This document shows positions 7,401-47,907 of a DNA stretch of 64,000 nucleotides, piece after piece. A program made the position numbers and the translations under genes. Location: positions 62,001 through 126,000 of the forward strand of contig NZ_JACJPI010000083.1 of the NCBI RefSeq assembly GCF_014695975.1, written 5' to 3'. The DNA is from Leptolyngbya sp. FACHB-321 (GTDB lineage: Bacteria > Cyanobacteriota > Cyanobacteriia > Leptolyngbyales > Leptolyngbyaceae). Under the pieces are notes generated by a model, which worked only from the letters and a program-made list of their open reading frames with translations, searched no databases and had not been told where the DNA came from. Each line of letters begins with the position of its first letter. The first letter of the stretch is position 1.

Positions 7401-7440
7401 AGGCTTTTGTGACTATTGAAAGGCTTTTGTAACTATTGAA
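7401..7440. repeat. Tandem duplication of a 20-bp unit
   Basis: AGGCTTTTGTGACTATTGAA is followed directly by the same 20 bases with one G-to-A difference. Two copies only; a recent slippage or duplication product. Confidence 0.85.
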
Positions 7441-21140: not shown

Positions 21141-21170
21141 GGTCAAGTTAATGCTGGTCAAGTTAATGCT
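21141..21170. repeat. Perfect 15-bp tandem duplication
   Basis: GGTCAAGTTAATGCT occurs twice in a row. The second copy contains the stop codon of the Nudix gene, so the duplication lies exactly across its 3' end. Confidence 0.85.
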
Positions 21171-21579
21171 GGTCGAGCAGCGCTGGCTGTGCCTCAAGCC
21201 TGATCAAAAGGTGTTTGAGCGTTTTACTTTTGACACGCTTCGCTGCTTCTGACAGACTCAACCATTGCCGCTTTCGTTGCTTGGCTTCTGACCAATCTTC
21301 AAGCACGGTTTCAACGCGCATTAGAAAAAGCTCCATCTCGCACGGGTAGCCCCACTTGCGATCGATATAGGTTTCGATCGCAGGTGTCACTACATGACCA
21401 CTCACGCCTGCTTCTTCTAACGCTTCTTTGGCGGCTGAGTCAGCCGCACTCAAACCCAGCGCAATCCAACCTTTTGGCACAATCCAACGTTTACGCCGAG
21501 TGGAAGTAACGAGCAGCACTTCTGCCTTTCCCGCTGTCATCCGGTAAGGCAACACGCCTGACTGCCGCAGTATGAGCAT
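21163..21579 (-). CDS. NUDIX hydrolase domain protein
   Basis: A single-domain Nudix protein of about 138 aa. The box is PKGWIALGLSAADSAAKEAL followed by EEAGV. Relative to GX5EX7REUXEEXGU the first Glu is Leu and the Arg is Lys, while the metal-binding EAxEE part is intact, so it may still hydrolyse a nucleoside diphosphate derivative. PKGW-type Nudix proteins with this change occur in other bacteria. I start at ATG 21579 because GAGG lies 6 nt upstream; ATG 21591 and TTG 21615 are open upstream. The substrate cannot be inferred. Confidence 0.82.
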   Translation of the reverse strand: MLILRQSGVLPYRMTAGKAEVLLVTSTRRKRWIVPKGWIALGLSAADSAAKEALEEAGVSGHVVTPAIETYIDRKWGYPCEMELFLMRVETVLEDWSEAKQRKRQWLSLSEAAKRVKSKTLKHLLIRLEAQPALLDQH

Positions 21580-26937: not shown

Positions 26938-28749
26938 ATGAAAATTGCGATCGCACAACTCAATCCGACCATCGGCGATCTAGCTGGCAACGCTCAAAAA
27001 ATTCTTGCTGCCGCACAGCAAGCAGCCGATCAGGGCGCACGGTTGCTGCTTACTCCAGAGCTTTCGCTATGTGGCTATCCACCCCGCGATTTGCTTATGC
27101 ACCCTGGTTTTGTCGCATCAATGGCAAAAACTTTAGAGCAGATAGCTCACGATCTACCGCGATCGCTGATTGCCCTGGTCGGCACCGTGGAGCTTAACCC
27201 AAACTCCCTCTTGCATGGCGGCAAACCCCTGTTTAACAGCATGGCGCTCCTTGAAGATGGCAAAATTCGCCACGTCTTTCACAAACGCTTGTTGCCGACC
27301 TACGATGTGTTTGATGAAGACCGTTATTTTGAGCCAGGGCAGCAGGCAAATCATTTTGTGCTGGCATTGCAGAAGGCAGAAGTAAGTCAAACTGCTTCTC
27401 CCCCTTTCCTCGCCCCCCTCTCTCCACCCCCCTCTCTCCACATCGGTGTCACTATTTGCGAAGACCTGTGGAACGACGAAGAATTTTGGGGCAAACGCAG
27501 CTATACGGTAAACCCGATCGCCGATTTAGCGCAGCAAGGCGTTGATCTCACCATCAACTTGTCTGCATCGCCTTACACAGTGGGTAAGCAGCGGCTACGC
27601 GAAGCGATGCTCAAGCACAGTGCAACTCGGTTTGCCCAACCCGTCATCTACGCCAATCAAGTAGGTGGTAATGATGACCTGATTTTTGATGGCTGTAGCG
27701 TTGCCTTTAACCGTCAGGGCGAACTGGTCTGCCGTGCCCGCGCCTTTGAAACTGATCTGGTGCTACTTGAGTTTCAGGATGGTGATTTGCAACCCAGTGT
27801 TGTTAACGCTGTGCCCGACAGTGACGATGCTGAGATCTGGGCAGCGCTGGTTTTGGGTGTACGAGACTACGCTCAGAAGTGCGGCTTTTCGCAAGTTGTG
27901 ATTGGCTTAAGCGGTGGCATTGACTCGGCTCTGGTGGCAGCGATCGCCGTGGAAGCACTCGGTCGCGAGAATGTTTTAGGTGTCCTTATGCCCTCCACCT
28001 ACAGTTCCGCTCATTCTGTTAAGGATGCACTGGCACTAGCTGAGAATTTGGGGATGCGTACCGAAACCTTGCCCATCGGCAACCTCATGCAGTCGTATGA
28101 CCAGACCTTCATAGATCTCTTTGCAGGCACCGAATTTGGGCTGGCAGAAGAAAACATTCAGTCGCGGATTCGCGGCAATCTGCTGATGGCAATCTCCAAT
28201 AAGTTTGGGCACCTGCTGCTTTCAACAGGCAATAAATCTGAAATGGCAGTTGGTTACTGCACGCTGTATGGCGATATGAATGGTGGGCTAGCCGCGATCG
28301 CCGATGTCCCCAAAACCCGCGTCTATTCCTTATGTCGATGGTTGAATAGCCATCAGCTATCAGCCATCAGCTATCAGCCATCAGCACTTAAAACTCAAAA
28401 CTTAAAACTTAAAACTGAACTCATTCCCAACAACATTCTCACCAAGCCTCCTAGCGCCGAACTCAAGCCCGGACAGGTCGATCAAGATTCTCTACCCGAC
28501 TACGATACGCTAGATGCAATTCTGTCACGGTTGATCCACAGCCATCAAACCCCTGACGAGATTGTGGCAGGCGGTTACGACCCTCAAATTGTGAACATGA
28601 TTGTGAAGCTGGTGACACGGGCTGAGTTTAAGCGGCGACAGGCTCCTCCGGGTCTCAAAGTAACCGATCGTGCCTTTGGTACAGGCTGGCGGATGCCAAT
28701 CGCGAATCGCTGGTTACCCAGTGCAGCCTCAGCGATGGAAAAGGAATAG
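26938..28749 (+). CDS. nadE: Glutamine-dependent NAD(+) synthase with two in-frame repeat inserts
   Basis: Amidates deamido-NAD to NAD using glutamine. The N-terminal nitrilase-type amidase has its Glu in LLLTPELSLCGYPPRD, Lys in FHKRLLPTYDVFDEDRYF and Cys in GVTICEDLW. The synthetase domain has the PP-loop GLSGGIDSALVAA and LLSTGNKSEMAVGYCTLYGD. At 603 aa it is about 45 residues longer than I expect. The excess sits in two low-complexity inserts: residues about 148-168 (pyrimidine-rich repeat DNA) and about 471-495 (heptad repeat DNA). Both keep the frame and avoid the catalytic motifs, so the enzyme is probably active. Last gene of the NAD array. Confidence 0.93.
   Translation: MKIAIAQLNPTIGDLAGNAQKILAAAQQAADQGARLLLTPELSLCGYPPRDLLMHPGFVASMAKTLEQIAHDLPRSLIALVGTVELNPNSLLHGGKPLFNSMALLEDGKIRHVFHKRLLPTYDVFDEDRYFEPGQQANHFVLALQKAEVSQTASPPFLAPLSPPPSLHIGVTICEDLWNDEEFWGKRSYTVNPIADLAQQGVDLTINLSASPYTVGKQRLREAMLKHSATRFAQPVIYANQVGGNDDLIFDGCSVAFNRQGELVCRARAFETDLVLLEFQDGDLQPSVVNAVPDSDDAEIWAALVLGVRDYAQKCGFSQVVIGLSGGIDSALVAAIAVEALGRENVLGVLMPSTYSSAHSVKDALALAENLGMRTETLPIGNLMQSYDQTFIDLFAGTEFGLAEENIQSRIRGNLLMAISNKFGHLLLSTGNKSEMAVGYCTLYGDMNGGLAAIADVPKTRVYSLCRWLNSHQLSAISYQPSALKTQNLKLKTELIPNNILTKPPSAELKPGQVDQDSLPDYDTLDAILSRLIHSHQTPDEIVAGGYDPQIVNMIVKLVTRAEFKRRQAPPGLKVTDRAFGTGWRMPIANRWLPSAASAMEKE
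27372..27441 (+). repeat. Repeat DNA inserted in nadE, pyrimidine-rich
   Basis: Within the amidase domain, before the Cys motif. It starts with an AGAAGGCAGAAGTA segment also found near 47693 and continues into a C/T tract with CCTCGCCCCCC (27408-27418) shared with 24494 and 44712. It is translated as Ala/Pro/Ser-rich sequence (SQTASPPFLAPLSPPPSL). Confidence 0.7.
28348..28420 (+). repeat. Heptad tandem repeats inserted in nadE
   Basis: Five AGC(C/T)ATC heptads (28348-28382) are followed by about five ACTTAAA-type heptads (28386-28420). The DNA is read in frame as HQLSAISYQPSALKTQNLK and so on. The same AGCNNTC heptads occur between genes at 32567, 45703 and 55776. Confidence 0.85.
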
Positions 28750-31776: not shown

Positions 31777-32559
31777 TTAACGACGATCGCGTCGAGGGGT
31801 GCGATCGTCAAATTCATCTTCAAACCAGTCATCAGCACTGTCTGGATCAGAGGATTCTGTAGGGGCAGGGGTATCATCTAACGAGCGAAGCGGCGGCACA
31901 ATGACACGATAGTCTGCATCCACTACTGGTTGACCAATCACTGGTTCGGTTTTGCCCACACCAGAATCCTTGGGGTCGCTATAGCTATAGGAGTATACAG
32001 AGCCGTTACGAGACGTAGTTTTTGGTTCTTGCTTAGCTTCGTAGTCATTGCGGGTTCTTGACGCAGGGCGAGCATCAACAGGCTCATCTCTAGAATCATC
32101 CAGATCCCAATCATCCTCAGGTTCTTCATCCCAATCATCGATGGGGTCTTTGTCTACAGGCGATCTCGTACTGGTTGCTTGACGAGGCTCCTCATAGCCC
32201 TCCCAGTTGTTCCAGTCAGCGTCATTATCAGTTGCTTGTGCGGTTGCTGTGCGTGCGTAGGAAGCTGGTTCCGATGATGGTGCAGTCGAACGTGCTTGAA
32301 AGCCAGTTTGACGCGGTGCTTGCCGCATCCGCGATCGTGCGGCACGAACAGCAAAATAGTTGGAGACGCTAAATAAACTGGTGATCAACAAATTGGTGAT
32401 AATGCCAGCCCCGATCGCGCCTAAAACCCATATCGCCAGCGGCAAGGCAGGGGTTTGGATACCCAAAAACGTCAGTGGTAAGGGTGACCAGTTGAACTGA
32501 ACCAGGAGAAACAAACCTCCAGCCAGCCCTAGCAGCAGAATCAGGCGAATTATAGCCAT
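31777..32559 (-). CDS. LapA-like membrane protein with acidic tail
   Basis: A 260-aa protein. Two hydrophobic helices at the N-terminus (LILLLGLAGGLFLLVQFNWS and a second near 40-65) resemble the LapA/DUF1049 fold. A basic hinge (AARSRMRQAPRQ) follows, then about 175 residues of Asp-, Glu- and Arg-rich disordered sequence with WDEEPEDDWDLDDSRDEP-type runs. Function unknown; such proteins occur widely in cyanobacteria. ATG 32559. The heptad repeat at 32567-32594 sits immediately before the start. Confidence 0.75.
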   Translation of the reverse strand: MAIIRLILLLGLAGGLFLLVQFNWSPLPLTFLGIQTPALPLAIWVLGAIGAGIITNLLITSLFSVSNYFAVRAARSRMRQAPRQTGFQARSTAPSSEPASYARTATAQATDNDADWNNWEGYEEPRQATSTRSPVDKDPIDDWDEEPEDDWDLDDSRDEPVDARPASRTRNDYEAKQEPKTTSRNGSVYSYSYSDPKDSGVGKTEPVIGQPVVDADYRVIVPPLRSLDDTPAPTESSDPDSADDWFEDEFDDRTPRRDRR

Positions 32560-40362: not shown

Positions 40363-40430
40363 AAAGGCAGGAGGCAGAAGGCAGAGAGCAGAAGGCAAAA
40401 GGCAAAAGGTAAAAGGCAAAATAGAAAGGT
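40363..40430. repeat. AAGGCAN heptad tandem repeat
   Basis: About nine 7-base units of the form AAGGCAG/AAGGCAA with point changes, starting 1-5 bases after the methyltransferase stop. The same units occur at 45759-45791 (inverted), 47671-47706 and 61189-61210. Confidence 0.85.
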
Positions 40431-45702: not shown

Positions 45703-45791
45703 TGAGCTATGAGCGTTCAGCTATCAGTATTCAGCGTTCAGCCATCAGCGGTTAGCTTTTTACCTTCTGCCTTTTGCCTTCTGCCTCCTGA
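45703..45791. repeat. Two heptad repeat blocks
   Basis: First CAGCNNT-type heptads (about 45703-45755, e.g. TTCAGCTATCAGTATTCAGC), then inverted AAGGCAN heptads read as TGCCTTC/TGCCTTT (45759-45791). Both families lie side by side directly after the terminator. Confidence 0.8.
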
Positions 45792-47582: not shown

Positions 47583-47907
47583 GTGTATGCTCCGTAGGAC
47601 TAGCAAAACTATACAAAACTATGGGGCACTTCAGGGCGATCGAAGCGAATAAACTAGAGCTGTAGTGCAAGAAGGCAGAGGGCAGAAGGCAAAAGGCAGA
47701 AGTACAAAATGGTTGCGAGAGAGGCTCTTTGCTACATCATCACTTGTTGCTTACTTTTGCCTTGATGCGCTAGGGGCAGTCAAAAGGACATTCAACCAAT
47801 AAGTCTGCTGGGAAGCATGACATTCGCCCGGTTCCTGCTCATCTATGCCCCTGTTCAAGCTCTAACTCCTATCCCCTCACTCCTTACCTCACCTCTCCTC
47901 ACTCACC
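47583..47907. other. Repeat-bearing gap before aroB
   Basis: Holds AAGGCAN heptads at 47671-47706 and a C/T-rich run at about 47855-47907 that ends at the aroB ATG. Promoters for petL (minus) and aroB (plus) must be here. No reading frame seen. Confidence 0.55.
47671..47706. repeat. AAGGCAN heptad repeat
   Basis: GAAGGCAGAGGGCAGAAGGC and following units, about five heptads. Its end, AAAGGCAGAAGTA, is nearly identical to the start of the repeat insert in nadE at 27372. Confidence 0.75.

Follow-up and report, generated by a model that had tools for sequence, protein, structure and literature searches.

The window analysed here, a stretch of 64,000 nucleotides from Leptolyngbya sp. FACHB-321 (G000:C82:62001-126000), contains on its forward strand the nadE gene (26938-28749), which encodes a glutamine-dependent NAD(+) synthetase of 603 amino acids and is present in a single copy, NadE being matched once in the 6.7-Mb, 91-contig assembly. 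The gene was assigned from its open reading frame (ORF) and profile matches (NF010588, E 2.9e-225); as glutamine-dependent NAD synthetases do, the product possesses CN_hydrolase and NAD_synthase domains (PF00795 and PF02540), and its equivalog score exceeds the cut-off (748.8 bits against the NAD+ synthase profile versus 479). The coding sequence harbors two repeat-containing inserts, designated loop A and loop B.

The loop inserts of nadE and their protein context

Loop B consists of two adjacent heptad arrays on the plus strand. Array 1 (28348-28385), found by direct reading and by Tandem Repeats Finder, has a period of 7/14 and comprises five whole AGCYATC units (AGCCATC or AGCTATC) followed by AGC, which are read in frame from residue 471 as SHQLSAISYQPSA. 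Array 2 (28386-28416, period 7, also detected by Tandem Repeats Finder) continues in frame with ACTTAAA ACTCAAA ACTTAAA ACTTAAA ACT before GAA, giving LKTQNLKLKT. The original prediction, made from the sequence, had described five AGC(C/T)ATC and about five ACTTAAA-type units inside nadE, read in frame as about 24 residues. The heptad array inside nadE is real, the ORF is open across both arrays and the five AGC-type units were confirmed, and the number of ACT-type units was corrected to four. The insert occupies about 24 residues (471-494), within which a tryptic peptide, WLNSHQLSAISYQPSALK, is expected from the sequence. ACTYAAA heptads whose fourth base falls at codon position 1 carry C (28396) or G (28417), where T would create TAA, and the other three, lying in other phases, have T as the fourth base. 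This pattern is only suggestive of stop avoidance because it involves two sites and C is common in ACTYAAA units anyway.

The loop A insert lies in the CN_hydrolase domain (27367-27441, plus strand, residues about 144-168, delimited by alignment with approximate outer limits) and ends in a 14-bp tandem, CCCCCCTCTCTCCA, identified by Tandem Repeats Finder at 27413-27441. It had been overlooked in the original prediction, and relatives hold other heptads at this place.

When core nadE, outside the loops, was compared with that of eight relatives, dN/dS was 0.043-0.070 (within the genus, dS 0.99-1.85), which indicates that these nadE genes work; a pseudogene was rejected on this basis. Since the frame stays open and the surrounding sequence is under purifying selection, the loop B insert appears to be translated. 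In the AlphaFold2 model of NadE (mean pLDDT 79.9), loop A is a predicted coil (pLDDT about 50-68) linking strands 138-143 and 166-172, and loop B follows helix 459-471 with block means of 59 and 43 for residues 471-490; confidence is low at 431-450 and the C terminus as well. The fold matches those of 4f4h from Burkholderia (Z 34.4, rmsd 2.5, 457 residues aligned) and 5kha from Acinetobacter (Z 33.0, rmsd 2.2, 445 residues aligned). Of the earlier placement near a surface loop, the loop part is supported by the model, in which the insert is low-confidence coil. In the alignment with 5kha, 4f4h and 3n05, all solved homologues, gaps cover the insert wholly or largely, and several NadE proteins of the family have a bare loop (e.g. 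L019 and L027-L030), so the residues are not conserved in distant NadE proteins; the original prediction, which had named such conservation as its refutation, is therefore not refuted on this point. A conserved functional extension of NadE was ruled out, since the loops are absent or different in relatives. The low model confidence suggests that the insert is disordered; most likely, its peptide forms a bulge that is both neutral and disordered. At the mRNA level, a hairpin in which codons preceding the array pair with array units is predicted at 28337-28382 on the plus strand (MFE z -3.9 for the 87-nt stretch 28336-28422); this hairpin, or the likeness of the units to the flanking gene sequence, may be due to chance. 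In a comparison with MITEs, complementary arms were seen in the inserts of L003, L005, L021 and L135, and none bounds the window array.

Heptad arrays across genomes and genes

Alignments of 30 NadE proteins of the family, and then of 121 distinct cyanobacterial proteins (133 minus 12 identical ones), revealed two hypervariable places, namely loop A before GVTICEDLW and loop B between WLN and IPxNILTKPPSAEL. Runs of each period were counted with a score of at least 12 in 100 of the 121 nadE genes; in the other 21, which were left out, one of the anchor motifs could not be located. Twenty-six period-7 runs were found in loops A and B (11,427 bp) versus one, in a C-terminal stretch of L134, in the remaining 163,242 bp. 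Period-7 runs are present in 16 of the 100 genes, a proportion that is no phylum-wide rate because near relatives are over-represented in the NadE set. All other periods between 4 and 20, multiples of 7 aside (15 periods), gave nine loop runs altogether (8, 9, 15, 16, 18 and 20 jointly nine; 4-6, 10-13, 17 and 19 none), and the runs of periods 14 and 21 are the same arrays as those of period 7. In codon-shuffled nadE loops, no period-7 run was obtained. Chance low complexity was ruled out by the other periods and the codon shuffles.

The loop contents differ by species, often in other heptad vocabularies: CAGTCAG and CCCCACT in L002, GGATGAG/CATCCCT in L005, AATTCCC and AAAATCC in L006, GGCAGAG in L013, AAAGGCN with its near-complement in L003 and L020, and CCCCACT in L111 (Hassallia byssoidea). 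The insert is not strain-specific, a possibility raised with the original prediction, as the congeners G035 and G036 have related AGC/ACT arrays and other species have other heptads in the same loop. Counted by eye, the AGC- and ACT-type units of loop B number five and four in the window genome (G000) and four and five in G036, that is, nine in both, and G035 is 42 bp longer. Another congener, G039, has a loop B without heptads, yet different and non-empty. G036, with its AGC type, and G038, with an AAAGGAT hairpin type, are sisters (support 100/99) with unlike arrays, so array type does not follow the gene tree. Elsewhere, the loop A insert of a Xenococcaceae MAG nadE (L157 2501-4309), PPTPLYPPLSPRRGGKKEEKSLYMGEGR, has no period-7 run, which implies that this loop may be open to repeats of other classes. 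In Mastigocoleus testarum nadE (L146 2501-4258), loop B contains an AT-rich repeat-like peptide, QKINNQKINNQK, also with no period-7 run.

The units were also reported to lie between genes elsewhere in the window. This holds for AGCTATC (45705-45749, plus strand, Tandem Repeats Finder) and, genome-wide, for both units; by exact pattern, ACTYAAA is confined within the window to nadE, its further matches on contig C82 falling beyond 62001-126000. Further tandem repeats of the window comprise AGAAGGC/AAAAGGC intergenic arrays in both orientations (40365-40421, 45763-45790 and 47670-47702) and repeats with units of 20 bp (7401-7440), 15 bp (21141-21174) and 24 bp (32104-32150). Across the 6.7 Mb, AGCYATCAGCYATCAGC (AGCYATC pattern) gave 13 matches at 9 separate sites versus 0 for the reversed-pattern control, and AACTYAAAACTYAAAACT (ACTYAAA pattern) gave 31 matches at 26 separate sites versus 10 for a control that is poor because the reversed word itself matches ACTCAAA arrays. 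Among 42 family genomes, the AGCYATC pattern occurs in 8, including six of the seven of the genus (2 to 365 matches), and is absent from the other 34, with a control of 0 throughout. CATCCCT has 133 matches in G015 (control 38), whose nadE contains it, and is present in all seven genus genomes, though unused in their nadE; it was not found in 29 of the 42 family genomes. Its reversed-pattern control is poor because the reversed word is itself a repeat here (41 versus 2 matches in G035). G034 possesses 138 AGCYATC matches but another array in loop B of nadE, and this, together with CATCCCT in the genus, indicates that genomic presence does not predict use in nadE. Overall, the units of nadE loops are in many cases those of the same genome.

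The array had been regarded as an unusual occurrence in an essential enzyme; it is no isolated oddity, for twelve further family-matched genes of the genome have in-frame heptad arrays. Three of the 9 AGCYATC sites and 10 of the 26 ACTYAAA sites in G000 are inside ORFs (L031-L073), although three of the latter ten (L055, L059 and L065) are probably outside true genes; L033 (WD40-like) and L072 were identified by eye. All 13 sites are read on the AGCYATC/ACTYAAA strand, the opposite strand having a stop in every unit. In-frame arrays found by unit pattern are those of aspartate kinase (LysC), MutS, apolipoprotein N-acyltransferase (Lnt), MiaA, a UgpC-like ATPase and a hydantoinase-like protein, which scores below the cut-off of its best NCBIfam model; family profiles match these genes across the array or in two stretches. 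A periodicity sample of 400 kb at round coordinates added RlmN, a TIGR03492 protein, an HMGL/LeuA-type synthase, arginine decarboxylase, a methyltransferase and an NRPS linker. In this sample together with the window (464 kb; ORFs of at least 100 aa taken without gene prediction), period 7 is the main short period, with 9 runs in ORFs and 19 outside, and each other period below 14 has 0-2 runs in all. Longer periods in ORFs, 15 (11 runs) and 18 (5 runs), occur as with ordinary coding repeats. Per base, ORFs (386 kb) have roughly one tenth as many period-7 runs as the sequence outside them (78 kb). Leaving out the window, the 8 runs within ORFs correspond to about 134 per genome, and the 6 in clear conserved genes to about 100, both values being extrapolations from few cases; two of the eight arrays are doubtful (L190 19938, at the end of a cut-off ORF, and L193 6206).

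The RlmN insert lies directly before RLTVCVSSQVGC. Among 25 family RlmN loci, 11 (L222-L232) have long inserts composed mostly of repeat vocabulary, 3 are intermediate and 11 are bare or short (e.g. GIPTEKRLTV). In MiaA, an insert precedes LLVGGTGLY in most of L197-L211. Each loop was judged by eye, without a periodicity score, at 25 loci of the 42 genomes matched; L220, split in two frames, was left out and L218 is partial. The MiaA insert peptide has weak matches (E 3e-7 to 1e-3) elsewhere in G000, in G015 and G026 and in four members of the genus; some of these stretches belong to long open frames, and others contain stops. Two loops in NadE, one in RlmN and one in MiaA appear to be recurrent landing places in the family.

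Frame logic and origin of the inserts

Since 7 and 3 share no factor, a stop-free tandem heptad encodes, by arithmetic, the same cyclic heptapeptide in all three frames: SHQPSAI for AGCCATC, TQNSKLK for ACTCAAA, GRRQKAE for GGCAGAA and PHSPLPT for CCCCACT. The array can thus be read on that strand whatever phase it enters in, provided that its total length is divisible by three, which accounts for a small vocabulary in unrelated proteins. A special choice of stop-free units was rejected: with GC content assumed to be 52%, 88% of random 7-mers can be read without a stop on one or both strands, and one of the units found here, ACTTAAA, has a TAA within it.

The NadE insert is probably a translated array of dispersed STRR-type heptads that entered a tolerant loop, with slippage remodelling the array and selection keeping the frame (probability about 0.8). 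In the proposed mechanism, the many repeat copies of each genome, in families that differ between genomes, would be the source; copies may enter genes by a copying route, and a stop-free array could be read from any codon phase provided that its total length is 3n. Selection may then keep those arrays that are placed in loops, in open orientation, 3n long and stop-free, which is the pattern observed, and slippage or conversion could alter unit numbers with compensation, as the 5+4 and 4+5 pair suggests. The repeats are crisp despite a synonymous divergence of dS about 1.1, suggesting that the arrays are young or being homogenised. Among the genomes compared, no pair of filled and empty loops was found within one species, and the insertion event itself was not seen; no mobility enzyme was identified for the heptad arrays.

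Pure in-situ expansion, that is, slippage inside nadE from chance seeds with no input from repeats elsewhere, agrees with the different unit numbers of relatives and is favored locally in G016, whose nadE unit AATTCCC is found in 2 of 42 genomes and has three of its four G016 matches in nadE itself. In G016 this unit is hardly dispersed, and neither is GGCAGAA in G034, where its sole exact match is in miaA; both cases count against entry of a dispersed repeat there. As an explanation of the window insert, however, such expansion is unlikely, given that the insert joins two unrelated heptad families, each present at other genome sites. In G035 nadE, furthermore, a 20-bp imperfect palindrome (GTAGCGGCGCAAAGCGCTAC-like; L002, G035:C3:62672-62691) is nested in an ACTCAAA array. 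This palindrome is dispersed in the genus (3 matches in G035 and 26 in G034 with 1 mismatch allowed; control 0), and a similar palindrome/array junction occurs in G034 miaA (L200). An intergenic composite (L187 15660-15719 and the following sequence) likewise shows the family order of the MiaA insert. The nesting of the palindrome and the departure of array type from the gene tree favor copying plus slippage over slippage alone.

Selection for repeat-derived linkers, which might tune stability, partners or mRNA structure, could explain why the same loops are refilled repeatedly with different repeats, and mRNA hairpins (z -2.8 to -4.8) are predicted for 5 of the 16 inserts tested, among them that of the window. 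The other 11 inserts, however, have z values between -2.0 and +0.7, so that a common hairpin was rejected in favor of one in some inserts only; moreover, congeners differ freely in insert length and sequence, many relatives have no insert, and functional loops are considered quite improbable. An artefact, a pseudogene or an insert skipped or removed after transcription found no support and is hardly credible in view of comparable inserts in independent genomes, frames open throughout, the core dN/dS of 0.04-0.07 and the single copy of nadE. The preferred reading, entry of dispersed heptads followed by slippage, could be extended tentatively, at somewhat less than even odds, to a proteome-wide traffic within the family, still going on, in which frame-independent heptad cassettes move between intergenic DNA and particular "harbour" loops of essential enzymes, giving the core proteins of each species a repeat dialect of their own.

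Implications and relation to known repeat systems

Because a 7-bp unit disrupts the reading frame, essential genes would be expected to stay free of non-coding repeats, and a slip of one unit in the array would have this effect in nadE; nevertheless, heptads are common inside core enzymes and change between species. They constitute a natural series of insertion alleles for studying how proteins tolerate added sequence and how non-coding DNA gives rise to new protein segments. In practice, heptad loops can also cause errors in alignments, in family models and in the annotation of cyanobacterial genes. If the cassette traffic is true, non-coding repeats would be a continuing source of new disordered protein segments.

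Several heptad systems have been reported. In the open-access literature, to which the search was confined, no description of in-frame heptad arrays in cyanobacterial enzymes was found, and absence from print is not claimed. Microsatellites in Leptolyngbya-like genomes were surveyed in PMC8619395 for unit lengths of 1-6 bp. GGGNATC heptads of Xanthomonas and Nostoc, described in an extract of PMC4692102 as under-represented in coding regions and studied as G-quadruplexes, resemble the present arrays in being spread through a cyanobacterial genome. According to portions of PMC4679880, TAACTGA heptamers of Beggiatoaceae, found also in cyanobacteria, are in some cases within ORFs, 25 putative proteins containing or overlapping them mostly at protein ends or in hypothetical proteins. 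The Beggiatoaceae heptamers are direct repeats like the present ones, but the heptads described here lie inside conserved domains of core enzymes.

In type, the arrays resemble short tandemly repeated repetitive sequences (STRRs), of which three heptanucleotide families are listed for Calothrix PCC7601 in the same extract of PMC4692102, and which, by the title of Vioque 1997 as cited in PMC2858038, occur within the RNase P RNA gene. The arrays of nadE and of the genome are likewise tandem 7-bp units, in several families per cyanobacterial genome with dispersed copies, an assignment based on the tandem 7-bp form and the dispersal. In contrast to STRRs, heptads are here read in frame within enzyme domains. 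In this respect they behave like Rickettsia palindromic elements (RPEs), which, as far as the excerpted text of PMC10969869 goes, are dispersed in unrelated metabolic genes, many of them in frame and retained in the protein; the heptad arrays, too, are in frame in genes of unrelated function. RPEs, however, are palindromes of about 150 bp with a conserved peptide, whereas the heptad arrays are 7-bp tandems, frame-independent, of several families and variable in length, with about 70 bp of tandem repeat in the window insert and a peptide that varies by species; the arrays are therefore not RPEs, as the element type differs. The array in nadE is well supported and more widespread than the original prediction held, and it joins two known kinds: STRR-type units that behave like RPEs.
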